DNA of 55,092 nt from positions 1 to 55,092 of the IMG/VR virus record IMGVR_UViG_3300037882_003063; one strand, written 5' to 3'. Under the pieces are notes generated by a model. The model saw only the letters and a list, made by a program, of their open reading frames with translations. It was not told the origin of the DNA and did no database searches. Below, one piece after another: positions 1,923-49,885 of the stretch (position 1 is its first letter; each line of letters begins with the position of its first letter). Origin of the DNA: a virus. The position numbers and the translations under genes were made by a program.

Positions 1923-4525
1923 TATCCATCCGCCTCTACAACTGTCAAGCCCCTCTTGTTATTTTCGGCTCGTGCGACCATTGTACTACTCTGCTGTTGC
2001 AATTGCTGTACAACTCTTTGCGGGTCAGAACCGTTAATTGTCACCTCAAAGTTATTTGTTTGGGCGTTAGAGTAGCTATTATTAGCGGCTGCCGTCTGCA
2101 TACTGTCAACCGAAGCCGCCGCGTTACCAATAGCGGTTACGTTCCCTGATATTGGGGCTTGGCTGAAAATACCAAGTGGGTTGAATCCGCCGCTAAACAA
2201 CTCTTTTAAGTGCTTACCAATAAATGAGTCTTCGACAGCCGAACCGATAGCGCCAAAAACATCACTGGCTATCTTGCCCATCTGACCAAAGAAGTCAGCA
2301 ACTTTCCCAATCCAATCAAAGAGCGTCATCATTACGATGATAACAGGCTCGACGGCTTGCCCGATTCCAGTGAACATATTCCCTAGGTCTTGGGCTATCA
2401 ATGCAGCAAACGAAGGGATAACTTGGGTGAGCATGAATTGAATAAATGGCGCGAAGATATTTCCCCAAAGCCAACCAACGACTTGCCCAATGACCTCAAA
2501 GCCGTGAGCCATGCCGTCAATAAGTGGTTGATTCTGTGTTATCCAGTTTGCTATGCCTTGAGATACCTCACCGAAAACACCACCGAAGATGCTAACGATT
2601 TGCATTGCCCCGTCAAAGACCCATCCAATGACCTCACCAAAGAAGGGTATGACGTTTTGGGATAACCAATCAAAGCTCTGAACGATAATCGGCACAACAT
2701 TGTTAGCGATAAACCCAACAAACTGCATCAGGGCGGGTACAGCATCAATCAACAGAACATCAATAATCGCTGAAAATGTCGGGTATAAGGCATCAAAGAG
2801 TGAACTGGCTACCCTGCCCCCCGCGTTCACAAGTTCAAAGAATGCGGGTACAACAGTCTCGAGGATAAAAGAGCCAACTTGTAACGCAACAGGGGCTATC
2901 TTTGAAAACGTTTCCCAAATTGCCTGACCAATAGGCATGAAGGCAACGCGAAGCCCCATAAGGGTTTGGACAGCAGCGCCTAGGCTCGTTACTATTGCCG
3001 CGCCAAGCTGCGCTAACTCAGGGCTGTTAAGAATCCCAACAATGGTCTGAGCAATCTCTTGGTAGTAGCTCGAGAGTGCAGCGAAGTCAAAACCTCCGAT
3101 GGTTTGGAATAAGCCATTGAATGCGCCCCCAACTGAATCAAAGAAACTTGTGAGGTCTATTCCTGAAAGAATATCAAAGATTGACTGTGCGAAGCCGCCC
3201 AGGGAATTTAAGGCGCTCGAGAAGTCTAGGCTCGAGAAAACACTGCCAACATAAAGCGCAAAGCCGCCTAGAGTGTTTAGGAAGCTCGAGAAGTCTAGGC
3301 TCGAGAAAACACTGCCAACATAAAGCGCAAAGCCGCCTAGAGTGTTTAGGAAGCTCGAGAAGTCCACTTTTGAGAGGCTGTCAGAAAAAAAACCAAGGGT
3401 TTTAACTGCGAAGTCTGCGAAATCACCGAGCATCTTCGAGAACGGGCTAAAGTCGGTTGATGCAATCAGTTTCGTGGCGAAACTTAATCCCTCCCATATA
3501 ACCTTAATCGTTGGGGCGATAAAGCCGTTATAGATTTTAGAAAAAGCCTTTCCGAATTCGACCAAGAACGGTATGCCGTTCGTGTACGCCCATTTCAGAG
3601 CCTTGGCTATGTCCTCACCCATCTCTGTTAAGTTTGCTCGAATGTTCAAAGCGGTTTTTGACAGTGAGCCGTCAGCAGTTATCAGGCTGTCACGAATATC
3701 CATCATGACCGTTTTTATAAACTCGAATGACGGTTCACCAATAATCTGCCGCCCCATGTCCATGAATTCCTGCATGGTCGAGGACAAACCCGCCCATGAG
3801 TTACCCTGTTCTTTAATCATGGTATCAGGCGCATACTTTTTCATGAATTCCATGACCATGCTTAAACGCTCAGGAGCGCCAAGGGCTTTGAATGCGTTAG
3901 TCCCGCCAATGTCCTCGACCATCTTGTTAAAGCCCCGTGTGTAAAGTTGAATGTCCATACCAACCTCACCACGGATAAGACGGGCTGCATCTCGAGCCGT
4001 TTGTGCAATGTCACCACCCATAAGGGTTGTGCCTACGCTCACAGCGCGGTTTGTGAATTCGGCAAACTTATCAAGCTCACCACCCGCCTGAGTGAACGCC
4101 CCAATGGTCGTCGCCGCAACCCCAAGGCGGTCATTAGTCGTCCCTGCCCCCACAAGCGCGTCTCTTCGGAACTGTTCAACAAGTTTGTTACTGATTAGCA
4201 TTGATTCATTAAACTTGTCTTGTTCATTTAGCAAACCACCACGGGCATTGCGAAGCTCGAGCGTGGCGTTTAGGAGTGAGGTCATCGTAAAAGTTTGCGC
4301 TTCAATCTGCGCGTTCACTTCAATACCAGAGCCTACAATGGCATCAAAAGCGCTCTTGACCCCATAAGCAATTGCTTGACTGGTATACATAACACTATTA
4401 AATTGTTGCGCCCCTCGAGCAATGGAGTCAAAAGCGCCTGAGAAACCACCAGCGCCAAGCCCCGTCATTGACTGGGTTAAATTTACTCCTACGTTCATGA
4501 TATTCATAGTTAAATTATACGCCAC
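1922..4525 (-). CDS. Tape measure protein
   Basis: The 867-residue product is the longest protein here and follows the tail assembly chaperone genes, the standard place for the tape measure that sets tail length. It is rich in long amphipathic and hydrophobic helices (for example residues 300-760), has a Gly/Ala-rich start and a polar, Gln-rich end. Residues around 390-450 contain a 23-residue unit repeated in tandem, encoded by 69-bp DNA repeats. The start is uncertain: GTG at 4525 is the longest, but ATG at 4507 follows TATAAT by six bases, so a leaderless start there is possible. No clear Shine-Dalgarno precedes either. Confidence 0.88.
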   Translation of the reverse strand: MAYNLTMNIMNVGVNLTQSMTGLGAGGFSGAFDSIARGAQQFNSVMYTSQAIAYGVKSAFDAIVGSGIEVNAQIEAQTFTMTSLLNATLELRNARGGLLNEQDKFNESMLISNKLVEQFRRDALVGAGTTNDRLGVAATTIGAFTQAGGELDKFAEFTNRAVSVGTTLMGGDIAQTARDAARLIRGEVGMDIQLYTRGFNKMVEDIGGTNAFKALGAPERLSMVMEFMKKYAPDTMIKEQGNSWAGLSSTMQEFMDMGRQIIGEPSFEFIKTVMMDIRDSLITADGSLSKTALNIRANLTEMGEDIAKALKWAYTNGIPFLVEFGKAFSKIYNGFIAPTIKVIWEGLSFATKLIASTDFSPFSKMLGDFADFAVKTLGFFSDSLSKVDFSSFLNTLGGFALYVGSVFSSLDFSSFLNTLGGFALYVGSVFSSLDFSSALNSLGGFAQSIFDILSGIDLTSFFDSVGGAFNGLFQTIGGFDFAALSSYYQEIAQTIVGILNSPELAQLGAAIVTSLGAAVQTLMGLRVAFMPIGQAIWETFSKIAPVALQVGSFILETVVPAFFELVNAGGRVASSLFDALYPTFSAIIDVLLIDAVPALMQFVGFIANNVVPIIVQSFDWLSQNVIPFFGEVIGWVFDGAMQIVSIFGGVFGEVSQGIANWITQNQPLIDGMAHGFEVIGQVVGWLWGNIFAPFIQFMLTQVIPSFAALIAQDLGNMFTGIGQAVEPVIIVMMTLFDWIGKVADFFGQMGKIASDVFGAIGSAVEDSFIGKHLKELFSGGFNPLGIFSQAPISGNVTAIGNAAASVDSMQTAAANNSYSNAQTNNFEVTINGSDPQRVVQQLQQQSSTMVARAENNKRGLTVVEADG
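3215..3364. repeat. 69-bp tandem duplication inside the tape measure gene
   Basis: Units 3215-3283 and 3284-3352 are identical, and 3353-3364 begins a third. The period is exactly 23 codons, so the reading frame is kept. Each unit carries two CTCGAG sites. Perfect identity points to a recent duplication or to ongoing recombination. Confidence 0.95.
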
Positions 4526-4537
4526 AAGGCGGCGCAG

Positions 4538-4690
4538 TTACCGCCGCCGCCGCCCCGCCAACTCTGCTAAATCTTTCCGCTCCTGCGCCGCCCTCTCTTC
4601 TGATTCATGAAGCTCGAGAATCGCATCCCGAATCCATCTTAAGGACTTCCTTGAAACATCAAAAGAATAGGATTTTGATAAAATCCGCAT
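4538..4690 (-). CDS. Tail assembly chaperone, T-like extension (expressed by -1 frameshift)
   Basis: This frame can encode a basic 50-residue peptide from ATG 4690, but it is open further upstream, through the end of the preceding gene. At 4738-4732 the minus strand reads CCCTTTA, a canonical X XXY YYZ slippery heptamer in the frame of the upstream gene. A -1 shift there joins residue 130 of the upstream protein to this frame and gives a 194-residue fusion ending in RRRR. This is the G/GT arrangement of lambda and the E/E' arrangement of P2, which lie just before the tape measure as here. I infer the frameshift; separate translation from ATG 4690 is the alternative. Confidence 0.65.
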   Translation of the reverse strand: MRILSKSYSFDVSRKSLRWIRDAILELHESEERAAQERKDLAELAGRRRR

Positions 4691-4698
4691 TGCCCTAA

Positions 4699-5121
4699 CT
4701 AGGCTTCGGTAGGCTGCTCTACCTTCGAGGTTAAAGGGGTTTCACCAAACCTTAGACTCTTAAGCCATTGTGTGACACTATCGGGTGTATCTTTAATGGG
4801 GTTTGCCAGCAACGCCTTTACCGCGACTTGTTGCGCTTGCTCAGGGCTTGTAGCATTCATGCTTTCGGCTACACGAATAAGAAGCCTTAAGTCCCTAAAG
4901 GGCATCTTGTTCCACTCCGAACGCTCGAGACCACGCCAACCCGCCCCATCTGGAACATAGGTCATGCGCCTAGTTGTGTGGTGCATGGCATGAATCGCCA
5001 CTTCTTGCGAATCGGCTTGCGCCTCCATTGCTGTTGCCCCGCTAGGTTCAACAATCATGTACTTAATTCCCTTAATTTCCACGACTTCACGTATCAAACT
5101 TGGGTCATCAATATCTCTCAT
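4699..5121 (-). CDS. Tail assembly chaperone, G-like
   Basis: This 140-residue acidic protein lies between tail tube and tape measure. That position and size are typical of the tail assembly chaperone that binds the tape measure while the tube polymerises. I chose ATG 5121 because GAGGTGAT lies at the right distance before it; an in-frame GTG at 5130 would add three residues. Ten codons before the TAG stop, the gene carries the slippery site CCCTTTA (4738-4732) for the -1 frameshift into the next frame. No enzymatic motif is visible. Confidence 0.7.
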   Translation of the reverse strand: MRDIDDPSLIREVVEIKGIKYMIVEPSGATAMEAQADSQEVAIHAMHHTTRRMTYVPDGAGWRGLERSEWNKMPFRDLRLLIRVAESMNATSPEQAQQVAVKALLANPIKDTPDSVTQWLKSLRFGETPLTSKVEQPTEA

Positions 5122-5195: not shown

Positions 5196-5714
5196 TTAGA
5201 GTAAAGCGTTGCCGCCCTCTCGAGCCGTGTACTTATCATCATCAATATCGGTGTAGACCCATTTGATGGTGAACGAACGCGGGTTAGTGCTGCCCATATC
5301 GCCTTTAATGGCACTGACTGACGCGGGAAAGCATTGTTTGTAAACACGTAAAAGTGTTTGTCGGGTTAAGAGAGCATCCGAATACCAAGCGAGTGTCAAG
5401 ACCCCTCGACGCTCCGTTTCGGATTTGCCTTTGTATGTCCCTCGAGCCAAAGAAACTTCTGTGACAAGTTGGTGCAACGGCTCAAGGAAAATGTTGTTCT
5501 TAACCTTGTCGTGGTGAGTCGTGGTTATCGGCTCGAGTTCGTAAGCCCCGCTATGCTCCTCGACCATCGTTGCGGGAGCGCCGCCCCGTGCCGCCTGTGG
5601 TACTGACCGCATAAGCGGGTTTACTGAGCCGCCGTCATGCGACATATAACTGGCAAATTCACGGGCTGTCGCATTGCCGATGCTGTAAGTCATTAAGACA
5701 AATGCCTCATTCAT
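5196..5714 (-). CDS. Tail tube protein
   Basis: This 172-residue protein follows the sheath gene (TAATG overlap, strong GGAGGT before the start) and precedes the tail chaperone. In myoviruses the gene after the sheath encodes the inner tube, a beta-barrel protein forming stacked hexameric rings. Length and the alternating hydrophobic strand pattern fit. No residue-level signature is decisive, so the call rests mainly on synteny. Confidence 0.75.
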   Translation of the reverse strand: MNEAFVLMTYSIGNATAREFASYMSHDGGSVNPLMRSVPQAARGGAPATMVEEHSGAYELEPITTTHHDKVKNNIFLEPLHQLVTEVSLARGTYKGKSETERRGVLTLAWYSDALLTRQTLLRVYKQCFPASVSAIKGDMGSTNPRSFTIKWVYTDIDDDKYTAREGGNALL

Positions 5715-7834
5715 TATTGACCACCTCCTACAGTTTTCTGAGCGCTACTAAACCGACCTTCAACCCTACCGATTTCAATGATGATTCGACGGGCTACACC
5801 AGCAAAGAGCAAGCCAAGTCGGAAGAAGGGCATTGTCTCACCAGCCTCTTCAACAGTATCGCCATCCCAATCCCAACCGATGCCCTTACCACCCGCCAAG
5901 AGGGTGTTAGGGTACTTATCAAACAGGTCGCTGATTTGACCAGCAATACGATTAAGCGAGTCCTGCGAAATAGGACTGATTTGCCCATTGACTTTTCTGG
6001 CAAATGGATAAGCATTCTTAAGTCGTACATGAAAATCAATCCAGTCAACAATGTCCTGAACCACCATATCCATTGCAACGACCATGCCCCATTGTTGGTA
6101 AGTGTTGGTCTTGTCAAGCGTCAACACGTCACCAATCACAACACCAGAGCCTACACTGCTCGAGTCTCGCATGTAAATCGGATTGACACGGGCTTTGGCG
6201 TACTTCTTTTTGTCATCTTCTGACAAACCATCAGCGTACAACCAACCAGTTATTTCTTCATTTGCCCCTGTGAGGTTCACGCTACCCTTGGTTTGCAACC
6301 AAGATAAAGCGGCTTGAGAAGTGACCCCGCCGATTAAGCTCAAACGCCGTGTAGTGGCATTAGAACGCTGTCCAGCCCCCTTGAAGACTGATAGGCGGTG
6401 ACGGTTACTGGTGAAGAGTTCTGTGTACGTTTCGTTCGCTTCGGGCGTTGTCCCATCCGCTAAGGCTTGCAGAATCATCCAACGCTGTGACGCGCCAATG
6501 TCCATAAGCGATTGTACTTGGGCTTGAGGAGCGGTTGAATCAACCACAATCACAGCGCGGCGCAAGCCTGTGTTTTGTAATGCGGTGACTGCTGCTGTCC
6601 AGTCACCAGCAATCGGGGCGGCTGCATTCGTGCCACCAGCCAAGGCGTACACTCCAAGCTCAGGTTCATCCACCACTGTGTAGCCAGTATCCGCAAAGCT
6701 GTCAGACAGGATAATTGGTAAACCTTGGGCGTTGAATTTGGCTATGAAGTAATCACTTGAGGCAGGGTTAGCATTGCCATAAACAACGCTTTCAAGCTCG
6801 ACTTCGCCCGTGATTCGGTTTTTGTAATAAACTTTGCTGTCCACGCGGCTCGAGGCTGTACTTTGTTGCCCCGCTTCGACCACAAAATCATAACTGTTTC
6901 CTGCTGTTGACGGGTAACGCCATGTGGCGCGGTAACGGGCATTACCGACCACGGCGCTGTCTTCAATCAGTGCTGTCTGAGCGGGAGCGCCGCCCGTGCC
7001 GATTACTCGACCCGCGTAAATGTCACCAACGGATGCCATTTCAAAGTGTGATTTGACAATATCCAAGATGCCCGTTGAGGCTCTTGGGTATCCATACTTT
7101 TTAATCAGGTCACTTGTTGAAAAAATGCTTTTGATTGCATTCTGACCGTTCAGAGTTGCCCCGTCTGGAAAGTCACCAATAAAAACGAACTTTGCGCCGC
7201 GTGATGCTCGAGCGGGGGCGGGTGCTGCTGATTCAATAACTCGCGTCTCTGATGGTTGCGTCATACTGCCTCCTTGTGTTGGCGGGGGGGGTGTGGTCGT
7301 GGTCGAGCCGCTAACTGATAAAGAGTATACAAGACCGACCTCAGTTAAATTGCTAGGTAAAACCGTGAATGCCAATTCGATAAGCCCTGTGACCATTGTT
7401 GCGGCTTCGGCTTCGTCAATCGCTACGCTGTCAATGACTGTATCGGTTGCACTTCTTAACTGAAAAGTCCTCGAGCCGATAGTGCCATAAAGCCCTGCCT
7501 TAAGTTTTGTCCCTGCCGTTTCGGTGTGAGCGAACGGGTAAGAATCACCAAGAATCGTCAAGGTGAGTGTGTCGGGTGTAATCTCAAGTTCTGAATTGCT
7601 AAGCCCAAGGGTGATTGTGCCGTCAACAGTGTTTGAGTAAACAATCTCAAAGCTGTTGAGATTGTAACTAAACACCGCCCCATCCTTCATTAAGCCTAAC
7701 GGGGCTGTGCTGTTAGGGTCTAGCTCGAGACCGTCAGCCACAATAGAGTAATCACCGCGATTTACAAGGGTATCACTTCGGGTGTACCCGCTAAGCGCCC
7801 CAATGGTCATGGTCTCGAAATTATCGGTAAACAT
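5714..7834 (-). CDS. Tail sheath protein with N-terminal extra domain
   Basis: The protein is 706 residues as assembled. Residues 191-706 have the features of a contractile sheath: an N-terminal signal for the virion (RGAKFVFIGDFPDGA), a long alpha/beta core, and a C-terminal stretch with VGSGVVIGDVLTLDKTN and a polymerisation tail. Residues 1-185 are a separate beta-rich domain joined through a TTTT-PPPP linker encoded over a C8 tract (coding strand). Directly after the tract comes AAGGAGG and ATG 7264, an excellent internal start giving a 516-residue sheath of normal length. With one C fewer, the upstream frame would end in TGA overlapping that ATG. The product may therefore be a long/short pair or two genes. 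Confidence 0.85.
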   Translation of the reverse strand: MFTDNFETMTIGALSGYTRSDTLVNRGDYSIVADGLELDPNSTAPLGLMKDGAVFSYNLNSFEIVYSNTVDGTITLGLSNSELEITPDTLTLTILGDSYPFAHTETAGTKLKAGLYGTIGSRTFQLRSATDTVIDSVAIDEAEAATMVTGLIELAFTVLPSNLTEVGLVYSLSVSGSTTTTPPPPTQGGSMTQPSETRVIESAAPAPARASRGAKFVFIGDFPDGATLNGQNAIKSIFSTSDLIKKYGYPRASTGILDIVKSHFEMASVGDIYAGRVIGTGGAPAQTALIEDSAVVGNARYRATWRYPSTAGNSYDFVVEAGQQSTASSRVDSKVYYKNRITGEVELESVVYGNANPASSDYFIAKFNAQGLPIILSDSFADTGYTVVDEPELGVYALAGGTNAAAPIAGDWTAAVTALQNTGLRRAVIVVDSTAPQAQVQSLMDIGASQRWMILQALADGTTPEANETYTELFTSNRHRLSVFKGAGQRSNATTRRLSLIGGVTSQAALSWLQTKGSVNLTGANEEITGWLYADGLSEDDKKKYAKARVNPIYMRDSSSVGSGVVIGDVLTLDKTNTYQQWGMVVAMDMVVQDIVDWIDFHVRLKNAYPFARKVNGQISPISQDSLNRIAGQISDLFDKYPNTLLAGGKGIGWDWDGDTVEEAGETMPFFRLGLLFAGVARRIIIEIGRVEGRFSSAQKTVGGGQ

Positions 7835-7846
7835 CTCTTGCCTCCT

Positions 7847-8536
7847 TTATTCAATAATAAGCAATTCTTGCTTATCAGTTAAAGTTACCACGGGGTAAGT
7901 GTCTAAATCTGGCATTGGTTCGCCAACACCGCCCGTCACCAAAGCGACTTCCTTGGCTGTGTTAGCCTCCACAAAACCGATACCGTCAAGGAGTGGGTAA
8001 GTGATAAGGTAGCGCAAAACAACATGAATCTGCGCCTGATACTCGAAAGAAGACGGGCTTCCAATCAGTTTCGTGACGAAACCACGACTGACACCATCAT
8101 GGATTAGACTTCGCTCCTCACGCTCAGCCCCAAGGACACCCATTAGCTTGCTTTGATTTCTGATGTAAAGACGGTTGACGCTTATTTTGCCGTGGCGTTG
8201 GGCAGCATCACGAGTTTCACGCAACACAAGATGCAGCTTTACCTCATGGTCTACATATTGAAGCATCTGTTCAATTATCAGAGTGCCTAACGTACTCGAG
8301 ACTTCGCGTTTTTCTCTTAAGTCTTTCGCTTGCCCTTCGCTTGGTAAGGGTACTTCAAAGTAATCAATCCCAACCCGAAGCGGGATTTTTTGCCCGTCTT
8401 GGTCAGGGTTCACCATGCCATACGTGACAATACGACCATTAAGCCCGTCTAATAAGTACCTGTCAGGCGGGTCAAACATATAAAGACCAGCCGCATAAAT
8501 ACGACTCTTGATAAAATCTAGGATACTTTCAAACAT
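7847..8536 (-). CDS. Putative tail terminator/neck protein
   Basis: This 229-residue protein is encoded between the tail completion protein and the sheath. In contractile phages this slot holds the tail terminator that connects tube and sheath to the neck. It overlaps the preceding gene by eight bases. A copy of the 15-bp palindrome lies inside it at 8068-8082, read as RGFVTK. I see no diagnostic motif, and the role is inferred from position. Confidence 0.5.
   Translation of the reverse strand: MFESILDFIKSRIYAAGLYMFDPPDRYLLDGLNGRIVTYGMVNPDQDGQKIPLRVGIDYFEVPLPSEGQAKDLREKREVSSTLGTLIIEQMLQYVDHEVKLHLVLRETRDAAQRHGKISVNRLYIRNQSKLMGVLGAEREERSLIHDGVSRGFVTKLIGSPSSFEYQAQIHVVLRYLITYPLLDGIGFVEANTAKEVALVTGGVGEPMPDLDTYPVVTLTDKQELLIIE
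8068..8082. promoter_or_regulatory. 15-bp palindrome
   Basis: Perfect copy inside the putative tail terminator gene. Confidence 0.8.
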
Positions 8537-12017: not shown

Positions 12018-12311
12018 TTAGGAAAAGATTTTCTCGAGCAGGGTATTAAGTCTGGTTTGACCCTCGGGCGTATCGCTAAAGAGTTCGTCAAGACGGGTGC
12101 AAGTGTCGGGTGAAAAGTTGTATTTGTAGGCATCGTAATATGTAATGGCTTCGCCTTCAATCGTAAACCAAACATCATCTTGTGTTGGGCTACACACTAA
12201 CCATTCGGCGGGTTTCTCGCTACCCATTTTATAGACTGATACTGCGATAGGGCAGTTAAGGTCTTTGGCGGTTTGAAGAGCTTGACGGGCGGTGTACGGG
12301 ATGTGTGTCAT
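12018..12311 (-). CDS. Hypothetical protein, left arm of cassette A
   Basis: This 97-residue protein starts at ATG 12311 behind a perfect GGAGGT. It begins MTHIPYTARQALQTA, which resembles the start of the J-domain protein at cassette C (MTHTEQQALETA). The cassette duplication may therefore have carried along the first codons. The remainder is acidic and unassigned. Confidence 0.7.
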   Translation of the reverse strand: MTHIPYTARQALQTAKDLNCPIAVSVYKMGSEKPAEWLVCSPTQDDVWFTIEGEAITYYDAYKYNFSPDTCTRLDELFSDTPEGQTRLNTLLEKIFS

Positions 12312-12605
12312 ATGTGCTACCTCCTTGGTAGTGAGTGCATAGTATCGTGCATTTTGGAGTTGTACTAGGGACATTTATCCCATACCTAATTTGACCTGCT
12401 TCTATGGGTTCAAAGGGTCAAGGGTAGTGCCTTTATACGCACCGTGAGCGCTTTTAAGCCTGCTTTGGGTCGTTCTGTGGCTCGAGTTACCAGAGCGCTA
12501 TATATAAGGGATTCTAGGCGATTCTAGGAGTCGGGACATTTATCACTGGTATACCTTTCTTGTGTATCGTTATGATGCACTCACTACCAAAGGAGGTAGC
12601 ACCCC
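12312..12605. promoter_or_regulatory. Divergent promoter cassette A
   Basis: Both ends carry the same outward-facing element: TAnnnT, then GCACTCACTACC, then AAGGAGGTAGCAC. The left -10 is TACTAT (12344-12339, minus) and the right is TATGAT (12571-12576, plus). A GGGACATTTATC box lies inboard of each arm (12368-12381 and 12533-12544). The centre holds a CTCGAG and TATATATAAG. It is more diverged than copies B and C. No good -35 is present, suggesting activation or repression through the GGGACATTTATC boxes. Confidence 0.8.
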
Positions 12606-12932
12606 ATGAAACGACACGAATTTATTATCATCAACGACATTGAATGCCGCCCTGACCGTCAAGTGCAAGCGCAGTTTGCAGGAACGGACACAAAACACCT
12701 AACATCTATTGCGCTCATGAACTGCACGGATGCAGATACGCCCCAAGCAGCGATTGATGGTCTTAAAGAAGCCATGACCAAACCATTTGAATTCGCAAAC
12801 TACCAATTCGCAGAAAAGGTCATCCGCCCCCTACTCACTGACGAAACCCTAGGCTCGAGTATCCGCCACGTTTACACAATCGGGTTTTATAGCGTTTATG
12901 CAGCAGCAGCAGCAAAGAAGGTGAGCAAATGA
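12606..12932 (+). CDS. Hypothetical protein, right arm of cassette A
   Basis: This 108-residue protein is the first of five short plus-strand genes behind the cassette's AGGAGGT. It has an alpha/beta pattern and an alanine-rich C-terminus (YAAAAAKK). No motif is recognised. Strong expression is likely given the ribosome site. Confidence 0.7.
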   Translation: MKRHEFIIINDIECRPDRQVQAQFAGTDTKHLTSIALMNCTDADTPQAAIDGLKEAMTKPFEFANYQFAEKVIRPLLTDETLGSSIRHVYTIGFYSVYAAAAAKKVSK

Positions 12933-25310: not shown

Positions 25311-25477
25311 TAGTACCACACTCCCGCCGCGTACTGCATCGGGGCTGTTGTCATTTTGGTCAGATACTCCGTGTTCGCTTTGATGGTTTCGACCAGTTTA
25401 GAAACTGGTGTTTGAAACCACTTGAAACGGTCATCTGGACTTGGGTCGGGGCTAATGTCGCTTATATCTGTTTTCAT
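25310..25477 (-). CDS. Small protein of cassette B left arm, 55 residues
   Basis: ATG 25477 follows the cassette's GGAGGTAGCACACC, and the frame runs to TAA at 25310. The product begins MKTDISDISPDPSPDD and is the first gene of the leftward operon. Strong ribosome site and coupled downstream gene support it. Confidence 0.7.
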   Translation of the reverse strand: MKTDISDISPDPSPDDRFKWFQTPVSKLVETIKANTEYLTKMTTAPMQYAAGVWY

Positions 25478-25759
25478 GGTGTGCTACCTCCTTGGTAGTG
25501 AGTGCAAGGTATCATGCAAAATACAAATAGACTAGGGACGTTTGTCTAGTAGTGACTTTTTGGCTTTTGGTCGTCTCATAACCCTGTCTTGTGAGTGCTG
25601 TGAGCGCTTATAAGGCTGTCCTAGGCTGTCTCATGGCTCGAGTTACCAGACAGCTATATATAAGGCATTGTGAGCCATTCTAGGAGTCGGGACATTTATC
25701 ACTGTTTTAGGCGTTGGGTGTATCGTTACAATGCACTCACTACCAAAGGAGGTAGCACC
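25478..25759. promoter_or_regulatory. Divergent promoter cassette B
   Basis: Left arm -10 is TACCTT (25511-25506, minus) preceded by TGCATGA; right arm -10 is TACAAT (25727-25732, plus). Both lead into GCACTCACTACC and GGAGGTAGCAC. The right box is GGGACATTTATC (25689-25700), while the left box has drifted to GGGACGTTTGTC (25535-25546). Bases 25579-25757 match cassette C with two mismatches. Confidence 0.8.
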
Positions 25760-25969
25760 ATGAACGAACACACTTGCCCTACGTGCGATGGTACTGGAAT
25801 TGTTGAAGAGGTTCGCTCTTACTTTGACCAACACCAACAGCAATGGTATCTCGATTTCAAAGAAAAGCCATGCCTTGGCTGCTCACACGAAGAGCCTTAT
25901 GAGCCTGACGCTTGGGACTTTGACCGTGACTTCCCAACCTATCCCGACAGCGAAGACTTGCCCTTCTAA
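25760..25969 (+). CDS. Small Cys-rich acidic protein
   Basis: This 69-residue protein starts at ATG 25760. CPTCDGTG at residues 5-12 and CLGC later resemble half of a DnaJ-type zinc finger, and the C-terminal third is very acidic and Pro/Tyr-rich. It may bind zinc and a protein partner. It is the first plus-strand gene of cassette B. Confidence 0.65.
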   Translation: MNEHTCPTCDGTGIVEEVRSYFDQHQQQWYLDFKEKPCLGCSHEEPYEPDAWDFDRDFPTYPDSEDLPF

Positions 25970-30177: not shown

Positions 30178-30492
30178 CTAGCGTCTACGGGCTGAGCCGT
30201 CACGGTTGACACGACGACCAGTTTTGGCATTGGTGTACCCGCCGCCGTCACGTTTCGTAATGCCCCGACCAAGTTTGACACTGGCTTTCTTGACGGCTGC
30301 TGCACCTTTACCTTTGCCCTTGGCGGCTGCTTTGGCTTTAGGTGCTGGTAAAGCCTTGGGCTTAGCGGCTCTTGGTAAAGCCTTCGGCGCTGCCTTTTTA
30401 GCCCTGGCTGGTGCTTTCTTAGCTGCTGGTTTCTTAGCTGCTGGTTTCTTAGCTGCTGGTTTCTTAGCTGCTGGTTTCTTTTTGGCTGCCAT
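30178..30492 (-). CDS. Histone H1-like Lys/Ala/Pro-rich protein
   Basis: This 104-residue, extremely basic protein has four PAAKK repeats at the N-terminus (15-bp DNA repeats at about 30416-30476), then more KAxxK, and ends GRRVNRDGSARRR. It resembles bacterial H1-like proteins (Hc1, AlgP tail) that coat DNA. It could condense the phage genome or alter the host nucleoid. AAAGGGGG precedes the start. It has its own terminator, so it may be strongly expressed. Confidence 0.7.
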   Translation of the reverse strand: MAAKKKPAAKKPAAKKPAAKKPAAKKAPARAKKAAPKALPRAAKPKALPAPKAKAAAKGKGKGAAAVKKASVKLGRGITKRDGGGYTNAKTGRRVNRDGSARRR

Positions 30493-31899: not shown

Positions 31900-32580
31900 T
31901 TAGACTTCTTGTGCTTGGTACTTACTCGAGATGTGAGACCATGACTGAGCTTTGCCTTTTCCAGCAGGAACACCCGCGTAATACCATTTTTGTTTGTTGG
32001 GCGACCAACGCAGTTTAAGCAGACCTAGCGCTTCTTTGTGTTTTTTGGTTTCGCCACTGACCCAAAGCCAAGCATTGGCGCGTTCGACCACAAGACCGTC
32101 GAGGAGCTTAAGGGCGGCAACGATTTGTTGGATTTTGGCTTCTACTTCGTCAGTGATTTTTGTTGTGCTTTGACCCGCTTGGGCGGATGCTTTGCGCTTC
32201 TCGTGAGCTTCATCAGTCTGAGCTTCGGCTTGGGCGCGGCGCTGCTTGGCTTCTTCGGCGCGTTTTGCGGCTTCTTTAACCTGTTCGTCAAACCATGCGG
32301 AGTGTGACCGACTTTGGTCACGGGCGTTAGAGCTTTTAGCGTATTTTGAGTTGCTAAAAGTCATATATCGCGTTCTTGGGTAGTTGCCTTTGGCGATAGC
32401 CTCTTTGACAGCCTTATGAACCGCGTTAATGGCTTGCATAATTTTTTTGTTACCGTTGGGGCGGTCAGGATGCCAACGTTTTGCAAGTTCCCTAAATCTG
32501 GTGGCGCAGTCTTCGCCGTTTCTAATGCTCGAGAAGTATGTCCATGCGGTTTCGAGGGCTTGCTGTTCGGTGTGTGTCAT
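31900..32580 (-). CDS. J-domain (DnaJ-like) protein
   Basis: This 226-residue protein has a J-domain at residues 8-60 with the essential HPD at 37-39 (KRWHPDRPNG), which stimulates host DnaK. A charged coiled coil follows (residues 100-145). The C-terminal domain, WLWVSGETKKHKEAL then RWSPNKQKWYYAG, matches a domain seen in other phage and plasmid J-proteins. No Gly/Phe or zinc domain is present. It is the first leftward gene of cassette C. Confidence 0.8.
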   Translation of the reverse strand: MTHTEQQALETAWTYFSSIRNGEDCATRFRELAKRWHPDRPNGNKKIMQAINAVHKAVKEAIAKGNYPRTRYMTFSNSKYAKSSNARDQSRSHSAWFDEQVKEAAKRAEEAKQRRAQAEAQTDEAHEKRKASAQAGQSTTKITDEVEAKIQQIVAALKLLDGLVVERANAWLWVSGETKKHKEALGLLKLRWSPNKQKWYYAGVPAGKGKAQSWSHISSKYQAQEV

Positions 32581-32874
32581 ATGTGCTACCTCCTTGGTAG
32601 TGAGTGCATTGTATAATGCAGAATTAAGGGAGTCTAGGGACATTTATCTCATACCTAATTTGACCTGTTTCTATGGGTTTAAGCCGACTTTTAACCCTGT
32701 CTTGTGAGTGCTGTGAGCGCTTATAAGGCTGTCCTAGGCTGTCTCATGGCTCGAGTTACCAGACAGCTATATATAAGACATTGTGAGCCATTCTAGGAGT
32801 CGGGACATTTATCACTGTTTTAGGCGTTGGGTGTATCGTTACAATGCACTCAATACCAAAGGAGGTAGCACCCA
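32581..32874. promoter_or_regulatory. Divergent promoter cassette C
   Basis: Left -10 is TACAAT (32613-32608, minus), right -10 is TACAAT (32840-32845, plus). GGGACATTTATC boxes lie at 32637-32648 and 32802-32813. Bases 32692-32870 match cassette B with two mismatches, while the left part (TTTGACCTGTTTCTATGGG) matches cassette A instead, so C looks like a mosaic of both. Confidence 0.8.
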
Positions 32875-33219
32875 ATGAAAAACGTACCAGACAGCGCCCA
32901 AGCAATCGCCAAACAATGCCTGAGCAACCCCGCCCACTTAATTTTTTGCATCACCATCAACCCTAACTTTTTGAGAGCGAGCGCCCATAAGAGATTCCCT
33001 CGCTTGCTTGACTTGCGCTTGCTTGACTTGCTCCTCACAGCTAAAAGTGGAATGACTGGAATCCCAAGCCCCGACTACTGCAAAACAGTTCACGCCCTTT
33101 GCGACGAGTTGACCATCGGCGGTTTGCTCCTTATCTGTGCAATTCTGCTACAAAAAACGAACATCGAAACGGCTCGAGTCTTCGGTAAAGCCCATGCGAT
33201 TTGGGAGGGTAATTTATGA
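32875..33219 (+). CDS. Hypothetical protein, right arm of cassette C
   Basis: This 114-residue protein is behind AGGAGGT. It contains a repeated LLDLRLLDLLL helix and a hydrophobic stretch near residue 85 (GGLLLICAILL) that could be one membrane segment. Unknown function. Confidence 0.6.
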   Translation: MKNVPDSAQAIAKQCLSNPAHLIFCITINPNFLRASAHKRFPRLLDLRLLDLLLTAKSGMTGIPSPDYCKTVHALCDELTIGGLLLICAILLQKTNIETARVFGKAHAIWEGNL

Positions 33220-39185: not shown

Positions 39186-40105
39186 TACGATAACCTCTGC
39201 CATTCACTGGCTTCTTGAAGGGTAAAAATTGCCTTGGGCGGGTCTTGTTTGTATGCCGACTTAAACGCCTCAACATCAATATGTATCTCGTTGCCAACGC
39301 TATCCACTTTTATAATCTCGACCCGCCTACCCCCTCGAGTTAAATAAACACCACACAAAAGCAATGAATCGTTTCGTTTCGTGACGAAACTACTTTTCCA
39401 AGACGGGAAGCGGTCAATAATTAGGGCGGGAGTTACAAAGCCAAGTTTGATACCTTGCTCCTCAAGAATCCATTTGAAGTAGGGCTTTATATCCTCCTCC
39501 TTGCAACCTATTTCAATGAGGGTTTTAACGGTCTTGCCGATACGGGCTTTCATGTTAGGCGGGACTTGTGCATCAGGTGTTTTATAAAGCTCGAGCCAAA
39601 TTGCATCGTAAATTCTTTGGTGAAGACTTACGGGCTTCGTTTCGTCCTCGACGAAAGAATTTTCTAAATCAGTATTTTCTAAATCAGTATTTACTAGCGT
39701 CTCGTTTACCGAAGTCGGTTTACCCGAAGTCGGTTTACCCGAAGTCGGTTTACCCGAAGTCGGTTTAACGCTACTTTTAGGGGGTAATATGCTCACTTCT
39801 CTGACTATGGTTTCATAGCCAAGCATCTTGCCATTACTCGAGCGCCGCTCACCCCTTGAGGCATAGCCAAACTCGATTAACTCATTCATGGCGTTACTCA
39901 CACCCGTATAACCATCACCGCGAGCCTTAGAATCGGTTTTTCTATCACGGGCTATCGCTCTAAGGTTTACCTCCCAGTGGTCAGGTTTGGATAGCAACCA
40001 AAGCAGCAACCCAAGGGCAGAAAAGCTAAGTCTGCTATCCGTGATTGCGCTATTGCTCATGACTGTGTAAGTGTCTTTGCCGCGCTCTTTCCTTAAAATA
40101 CCCAT
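39185..40105 (-). CDS. Replication initiator (lambda O-like / DnaD-like) with internal iterons
   Basis: This 306-residue protein has an N-terminal winged-helix domain (residues 20-100, LSFSALGLLLWLLSKPDHW pattern of phage replisome organisers) and a repeat linker (four KPTSG-like units, then two NTDLE units). The C-domain is helical. It lies just upstream of the helicase, as O before P in lambda. Direct DNA repeats in the linker make it a candidate origin. AAAAGGAA precedes ATG 40105. Confidence 0.75.
   Translation of the reverse strand: MGILRKERGKDTYTVMSNSAITDSRLSFSALGLLLWLLSKPDHWEVNLRAIARDRKTDSKARGDGYTGVSNAMNELIEFGYASRGERRSSNGKMLGYETIVREVSILPPKSSVKPTSGKPTSGKPTSGKPTSVNETLVNTDLENTDLENSFVEDETKPVSLHQRIYDAIWLELYKTPDAQVPPNMKARIGKTVKTLIEIGCKEEDIKPYFKWILEEQGIKLGFVTPALIIDRFPSWKSSFVTKRNDSLLLCGVYLTRGGRRVEIIKVDSVGNEIHIDVEAFKSAYKQDPPKAIFTLQEASEWQRLS
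39376..39390. promoter_or_regulatory. 15-bp palindrome
   Basis: Perfect copy inside the initiator gene (read as SFVTKR), downstream of the repeats. Confidence 0.8.
39661..39768. repeat. Candidate origin: AT-rich repeats plus four 15-bp iterons
   Basis: Two AT-rich 15-bp units, TTTCTAAATCAGTAT, at 39661-39690 are followed 18 bp later by four tandem CCGAAGTCGGTTTAC units at 39709-39768 (last base of the fourth differs). Each iteron contains the inverted repeat CCGA/TCGG. Iterons beside AT-rich repeats within an initiator gene are the layout of the lambda origin. Confidence 0.65.
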
Positions 40106-48045: not shown

Positions 48046-48530
48046 TACTCCTTTTTGGCTAATCCTTCTTTGATTAGTCCAAGCCAGTCTATATTAAACT
48101 GCCCTCGAGATAAATGCTCTGCTTTTAGCAGAGACCTACTCGAGTTGGTGAGTGAACGGGCAAACACAGCATATTTGATATGCCACACAAAAACATAACC
48201 AGCTACCATCAACGGGCTTGTGTCAGTAGCAAACTGCTCAGTTTTATAAACTTCGTTCAGGGTGTTGAATTCGTCTTCGCCCCACTTCTCGACTTCGTAA
48301 CCAACGACCCGACAGGCTTTGACGGCAAGCTCTTTGCAAAACTCAAGCCCCTCCTTTGGCGTGTCTGCGAACCTTAAACCATAAAGCAAAATTTCAATCG
48401 GTAGGCTCATCACCTCACTGACCTCAAGGAGTGGCATACCCTGAGCGATTTCTGCAATCGCTTTTTCGCTAGGCTCGAGTCCAGCCCCGCAAATCCATTC
48501 GGCGGGAACGTTAGTCCAATTTATCCGCAT
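48045..48530 (-). CDS. Hypothetical protein, baseplate/fibre region
   Basis: This 161-residue protein starts at ATG 48530 in a TAATG overlap with the preceding fibre gene. Mostly helical and acidic with several Cys residues. It could be a fibre assembly chaperone. No motif is recognised. Confidence 0.5.
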   Translation of the reverse strand: MRINWTNVPAEWICGAGLEPSEKAIAEIAQGMPLLEVSEVMSLPIEILLYGLRFADTPKEGLEFCKELAVKACRVVGYEVEKWGEDEFNTLNEVYKTEQFATDTSPLMVAGYVFVWHIKYAVFARSLTNSSRSLLKAEHLSRGQFNIDWLGLIKEGLAKKE

Positions 48531-49885
48531 TAGTAAACACCTCCGATTACATTTGTAAAGCCTTGGTCGGGTGCGCCCGTTGGCGCGTAGGGGTTGAAGT
48601 CCTGAGCTACCATACGCCAAGTTGATTTTACGTTTATCGGAACGTTTTCTGGTCGGGCGTTATCGCTAAGAATCGCTAACCAAAGGCGTTTAGAGGTTGT
48701 ACCGCTAGGCACATCAATAACGAATGCCCCGCCAAAAGTACGAACGCTGTCATTTGCGTTTACTTCCTCGCTCGAGTTTGATGCTTGTGTGCCAATCAAG
48801 GTATAGTTTGGCGCTGACGGGCTACCGCCAACCGCCGCAAATGTCTGACCAATGTTGTTGGCACTTGAGAATTGACCTGATGTTGTTGCCCCGACAGCAT
48901 CACCCAAAATCACGGCTGCACTTACCACGGGTGAATAGCCGCTTTTGCCGCTATCGTCAATGCAGACAACTGATAGCGCCCCTAAGGTGAAAAGCATTTT
49001 TTTGCCAGCAAAACCCGTGAGGTTTATATCCCTATCGGCTCTAAGGTAGGTCGTTGCACCAAGGGCGCGGTAAACATGAAACTCAAAGTAACTGCCGTCA
49101 CCAGCCTCTAAGTCGTCAAGCCTGCTTTCATGGTCAGAGATTGACGCGGCTTGGTCTAGGTTTTCGGCTTCAATTGCTGTCACCGCGTCATTAAGGGCGT
49201 TTATCGAAAGCTGTTTTGCCGCAAGGTCAGCCGTGTGTCCTGCTACGGTTGCCTTGACCGCGTTTATCTCGACCTTAAGGGCTTCAATCTGAATCGCCGC
49301 AACAGCATAAGTGCGTTGAGTATTCTCAGTGGTTTGTATGTCGGCAACGGTGACAGCGCCCATACCCGCGTACATCCTCACGACTCCGATTCTGCAATCG
49401 TTCGTTGTTGGTGTGGGTGTCACGACTAAACTTACTTCGTCCCTTTGAATCCAATGCAGATTGTAAGGAGTGAAGGCAGGGTCAAAATCAGGGTTCTGAC
49501 CGCCGCCGCTCAGTAGGGCGGGTTCTGCATCAACCAAAATAAACGCTTCGGGGCTAACGTTGTAGCTTGGTCGAGCCACAATGTAAATATCTTGAGTGCC
49601 AACCAGTGGCACATAGGTCGAAACGTCAAGAGTGACCACGGCTCGATTTTCGAGGTGTCTACCAAGTTTTAGGGTTTCGTCACGAAACACACCGCGCCCC
49701 GCCGTGACTCTGACGTTAAGGCTTGGCACTGTGTTTTGTAGCAACTCGAGTCCAGTTAAAACGCCACTGCTGATGCTGTAATCAAAAAGAATCTTCTCGA
49801 GGTTCGCCCGAGGGACTTCTTGCAACATCCGATTCCAGTGTTCATCTTCTGGATTCCAATAATAACCAAAGTTTGGGTATTCCAT
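48530..49885 (-). CDS. Tail collar / fibre protein
   Basis: The 451-residue protein starts with an aromatic adaptor (YPNFGYYWNPEDEHWNR), followed by a beta domain. A coiled coil lies at about 195-255 (EALKVEINAVKATVAGHT onward), and the C-terminal lectin-like head (residues 265-451) is beta-rich. This is the architecture of a long trimeric tail fibre. It follows gpI, where the fibre usually lies. A palindrome copy is inside at 49674-49688, read as VFRDET. Confidence 0.7.
   Translation of the reverse strand: MEYPNFGYYWNPEDEHWNRMLQEVPRANLEKILFDYSISSGVLTGLELLQNTVPSLNVRVTAGRGVFRDETLKLGRHLENRAVVTLDVSTYVPLVGTQDIYIVARPSYNVSPEAFILVDAEPALLSGGGQNPDFDPAFTPYNLHWIQRDEVSLVVTPTPTTNDCRIGVVRMYAGMGAVTVADIQTTENTQRTYAVAAIQIEALKVEINAVKATVAGHTADLAAKQLSINALNDAVTAIEAENLDQAASISDHESRLDDLEAGDGSYFEFHVYRALGATTYLRADRDINLTGFAGKKMLFTLGALSVVCIDDSGKSGYSPVVSAAVILGDAVGATTSGQFSSANNIGQTFAAVGGSPSAPNYTLIGTQASNSSEEVNANDSVRTFGGAFVIDVPSGTTSKRLWLAILSDNARPENVPINVKSTWRMVAQDFNPYAPTGAPDQGFTNVIGGVY
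49674..49688. promoter_or_regulatory. 15-bp palindrome
   Basis: Perfect GTTTCGTCACGAAAC inside the tail fibre gene. Confidence 0.8.

Follow-up and report, generated by a model that had tools for sequence, protein, structure and literature searches.

This locus raises the question of how many proteins are made from a single open reading frame (ORF) that appears to join an extra domain to the N-terminus of a phage tail sheath. The frame lies on the minus strand at 7834-5714, begins with ATG and encodes 706 amino acids (aa) with no internal stop. A run of eight C residues and a second in-frame ATG lie between its two parts. The window analysed here is the whole 55,092-base virus record, which is probably a complete, circularly closed assembly because it carries a 99-base terminal repeat. 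The record encodes a contractile-tailed phage, with a terminase matching phrog_979 (E 3e-77), a baseplate J protein matching phrog_6 (E 2e-19), a head protein matching phrog_29 (E 9e-19) and a tape measure gene matching phrog_4200 (E 3e-8); Erf, DnaB and portal proteins are also encoded in the window. A 451-aa protein encoded close to the baseplate genes (48530-49885) is similar over a 64-residue stretch (E 8e-6) to phrog_4896, a family of phage glycerophosphodiester phosphodiesterases, and may be a tail enzyme that acts on polymers of the host wall. Three divergent intergenic regions, each of ~310 bases, are nearly identical (12300-12620, 25465-25775 and 32568-32890; mean column identity 86%). 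They carry AAGGAGGTAGCAC leaders pointing outward on both sides before the ATGs at 12311/12606, 25477/25760 and 32580/32875, and look like a repeated bidirectional control region. Tandem repeats of 15 bases were also seen within ORFs at 30407-30480, 33001-33031 and 39659-39767. The features of the locus, in the direction of translation, are as follows.

7841..7847, minus strand: Shine-Dalgarno AAGGAGG of the outer start at 7834
7265..7834, minus strand: extra N-terminal domain (~175 aa) and linker, codons 1-190, recognised by its frame and native codon usage
7284..7291, minus strand (G8 on the plus strand): C8 tract, read ACA CCC CCC CCG CCA
7269..7275, minus strand: Shine-Dalgarno AAGGAGG of the internal start
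7261..7263, minus strand: TGA that overlaps the sheath ATG, in the frame entered after loss of one C or a +1 shift
5714..7264, minus strand: putative 516-aa tail sheath starting at the internal ATG, assigned by a phrog_1036 match and gene position
5196..5714, minus strand: next gene, 172 aa, in tail-tube position, its ATG sharing the final base of the sheath stop codon (TAATG)

The sheath identity of the 516-aa part is weakly indicated by its sequence. The tail sheath family phrog_1036 was matched at E 6.1e-4 by the 516-aa form and at E 1.3e-3 by the 706-aa form, both weak values, and no sequence match to the sheath was found in Pfam, NCBIfam or PDB. The gene position agrees with the weak family match, since three genes of fitting size and order follow the putative sheath gene: the 172-aa gene in tube position, then a small gene and finally that of the tape measure. 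In Pfam and PHROGs, no tube family was matched by the tube-position protein and no informative family by the chaperone-position protein. A sheath starting at M191 would have an ordinary register, since residue 221 of its 516 aligns with position 248 of the 531 in phrog_1036. An hhalign pairing of residue 410 of the 706-aa form (sheath residue 220) with residue 217 of Mu L was not significant (E 0.83, probability about 0), and AlphaFold2 modelling of the 706 aa from the single sequence without relatives gave a mean pLDDT of 32.8. In the same block of genes, the tape measure gene contains a perfect 69-base tandem repeat (3215-3364; 2.2 copies, 23 codons per unit), and a short ORF (4525-4699, ATG near 4688) is present between the chaperone-position and tape measure genes, at the usual place of tail chaperone extensions.

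The internal start consists of AAGGAGG-N4-ATG at 7275-7262, with the ATG at 7264-7262 in frame with the 706-aa ORF. AAGGAGG occurs 14 times on the minus strand, and 10 of the 14 copies have an ATG 3-10 bases downstream, compared with 0.54 AAGGAGG-N3-10-ATG motifs expected per strand under a first-order model. Nine of these 10 motifs are located at ordinary ORF starts, with at most 21 open codons behind the ATG. The ATG at 7264 has 194 open codons behind it and belongs to the sole minus-strand AAGGAGG-ATG inside a long ORF. That the internal start exceeds chance is thus well supported, and because the other nine motifs sit at gene starts, 7264 is most likely a true start placed within a longer open frame. 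The sequence-only reading, which had this AAGGAGG-ATG starting a sheath of normal length, here 516 aa, holds on this point.

A separate domain upstream of the sheath had also been proposed, at 185 codons. An extra pre-sheath part is indeed present, and its length is corrected here to 190 codons, comprising the ~175-aa domain and 15 residues of linker. The C8 tract lies within this linker and encodes its prolines, as had been claimed, through the codons ACA CCC CCC CCG CCA, and the frame is open across it. The linker contains STTTTPPPPTQGGS, a Thr/Pro stretch that begins upstream of C8 and continues in frame 0 past the tract. The residues directly before the tract, SGSTTTT, and the frame-0 continuation, PPPPTQGGS, together make a plausible interdomain linker. 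The domain itself is acidic (pI ~4.05) and has no cysteine. No family, Ig-like and lectin-like families included, was matched at E <0.1 in Pfam, PHROGs or NCBIfam, and no paralog was found within the window. Single-sequence structure prediction of the 190-aa part gave a mean pLDDT of 32.0. A beta-sandwich or lectin-like reading made by eye is not claimed, as simple propensities and the structure model were both uninformative.

We give an even chance to a natural in-frame fusion with two translation starts, which would supply free sheath together with a version bearing the N-terminal domain. This reading is supported by the unbroken frame and by codon usage, which fits frame 0 on either side of the C8 tract and is native in both halves. 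Initiation at 7834 would produce a 706-aa (75 kDa) protein in which a flexible Ser/Thr/Pro/Gly linker joins the acidic ~175-aa domain to a whole sheath subunit, and initiation at 7264 would produce a plain 516-aa (55 kDa) sheath. If both forms are made and both enter the sheath, the tail sheath would be a mosaic in which the subunits are mostly plain and a share carries the extra domain. The domain would sit on the N-terminal arm via a flexible stretch of ~38 residues, formed by the linker and the Ala/Pro-rich first sheath residues, and could decorate the tail and either contact the host surface or lend the tail stability. Among 112 modelled sheaths (PMC9230969), extra domains are found away from a tube-contacting core built from N- and C-terminal parts, and are proposed to serve stability or adhesion. 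The Mu sheath N-arm takes part in an inter-subunit handshake (PMC11915804). By comparison with these sheaths, a bulky domain at the N-terminus would be unusual, which counts against the fusion, and would need a flexible stretch because the N-terminal part belongs to the core and the N-arm to the handshake. Such a domain would be easier to tolerate if most subunits were without it, which the inner start would provide.

The length of the tract determines what the upstream frame encodes, and frames were computed for 6 to 10 C. With eight, the 706-aa ORF is unbroken. With seven, the upstream frame gives ...STTTTPPRQHKEAV before it ends at the TGA overlapping the ATG at 7264 in an ATGA pattern, which confirms what had been predicted from the sequence. 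With six or nine, the stop is reached 29 nt beyond the sheath ATG, and with ten the frame ends at ATGA again. An alternative that we consider unlikely is that two separate genes are present, the natural state being C7 with the upstream protein ending at TGA, and C8 arising from misassembly or from a minority of the population. Its strongest point is that the 4-base ATGA overlap would be an ordinary junction in this genome, where 4-base gene overlaps occur at 5 of the 30 junctions examined. Both starts (7834 and 7264) also carry their own strong AAGGAGG, as two separate genes would, and an N-terminal addition to a sheath core is unusual (PMC9230969, PMC11915804). However, the 99-base end repeat suggests assembly from short-read k-mers, which would seldom miscount a C8 tract, so that the count is usually correct. 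A stand-alone protein would, moreover, finish in SGSTTTTPPRQHKEAV, an unused linker and an odd protein end. The in-frame fusion is favoured as the true genomic state because the Thr/Pro linker spans the tract in frame 0. If only an indel were involved, the locus would be a warning about gene calling at C tracts in metagenomes.

A further alternative is a switch, in which a +1 ribosomal frameshift on CCC_CCC_C or C7/C8 slippage during replication would free the domain, with the unslipped product remaining attached to the sheath. Apart from the C8 tract, no C or G run in the window reaches seven bases. Under a first-order model, 0.53 C and 0.28 G runs of at least eight are expected (0.81 in all) and one was seen; its length is thus not unusual and lies within chance, and eight C is short for phase variation. 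A +1 shift would indeed stop at the TGA on the sheath ATG, and shift-prone proline codons are present (ACA CCC CCC CCG). CCC-C is described as intrinsically prone to +1 shifts, reaching up to 1% in E. coli when at codon 2 (PMC4519876). In PMC5009743, +1 shifts are reported at CCC in the tail gene of Listeria phages A118, A500 and PSA and at ACA_CCC in the PSA capsid gene, and the tract here reads ACA_CCC_CCC. Nevertheless, sites of the Listeria PSA type are also marked by rarity of CCC, or by a stop codon or pseudoknot directly 3' of the shift site, whereas here CCC makes up 99 of 400 Pro codons and so is not rare, and no frame-0 stop follows the CCC codons. No RNA structure was detected downstream of the tract (z = +0.42 against shuffles, by a method without pseudoknots), no Rfam family was matched at the junction, and no excess of promoters or terminators was found near it. 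The C8-SD-ATGA pattern was present at 38 viral loci, with upstream stretches that were mostly short or out of frame. Only two of the 38 (L037 and L045) had at least 100 upstream codons open in frame with the ATG, and the ORFs of L045, like those of L041, look like unrelated GC-rich genes. The switch is judged improbable. The chance length of the run, the lack of downstream RNA structure, the common use of CCC and the empty searches for a relative to compare give no support to the suggestion of the sequence-only reading that the tract may be an assembly indel or a slippage switch; low-level slippage at C8 by chemistry alone is likely.

The two-start reading could be extended to a mosaic sheath with a tunable share of domain-bearing subunits, with C8 slippage setting how much attached domain, free domain and plain sheath is made relative to one another, and this we hold to be decidedly unlikely. 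It is very unlikely that the 706-aa protein alone is made, with a fortuitous internal start and an obligate N-terminal domain, since the internal SD-ATG is strong and lies at the normal sheath start, even though type 2 sheaths span 426 to 713 aa (PMC9230969).

Relatives of the in-frame fusion were sought with the sheath, the extra domain, the tube-position protein, the terminase, baseplate J, the head protein and DnaB as queries. At the DNA and protein level, phages and plasmids, viral_contigs and genome_contigs yielded no relative of either the sheath or the extra domain; the contig scans relied on short exact peptide patterns that miss distant relatives, so these negatives weigh little. The terminase gave distant matches only (best ~33% identity across long stretches), and baseplate J gave six weak matches. 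The sheath protein had no match in any of the 15 records behind the loci of one terminase search, nor in 41 of the 80 loci of another, mostly on longer contigs. A search for phrog_1036 in these 41 records and in the window matched the window alone. Word searches of open-licence papers brought up no account of a sheath that combines an N-terminal domain fusion with an internal start, nor of a sheath gene containing a homopolymer.

Should the virion contain both forms, its contractile sheath would be a natural mosaic, decorated through the N-terminal arm at a position regarded as constrained by the inter-subunit handshake. Sheaths would then be able to accept N-terminal cargo as long as plain subunits are produced alongside. 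An in-frame internal start within a phage gene is known from lambda C/Nu3, where two products from one frame likewise share their C-terminal part; the difference is that the shorter product here would be the major tail sheath. Major structural proteins also occur in a second, extended form in phage T3 (coat protein) and in Lactobacillus phage A2, whose Ig-like extensions arise by frameshifting or in-frame decoding, whereas the domain described here has no Ig-like family match. Listeria phages A118, A500 and PSA similarly obtain second capsid or tail products through proline-codon slippage (PMC5009743). In the T3, A2 and Listeria systems, the extra part is C-terminal and added by frameshifting, whereas here it is N-terminal, in frame and would be omitted by the internal start. 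An architectural parallel may be drawn with the type 2 and type 3 multi-domain sheaths (PMC9230969), which likewise combine a sheath core with extra, dispensable domains. In contrast to those sheaths, the extra domain here precedes the whole sheath and would be separable from it by the internal start.
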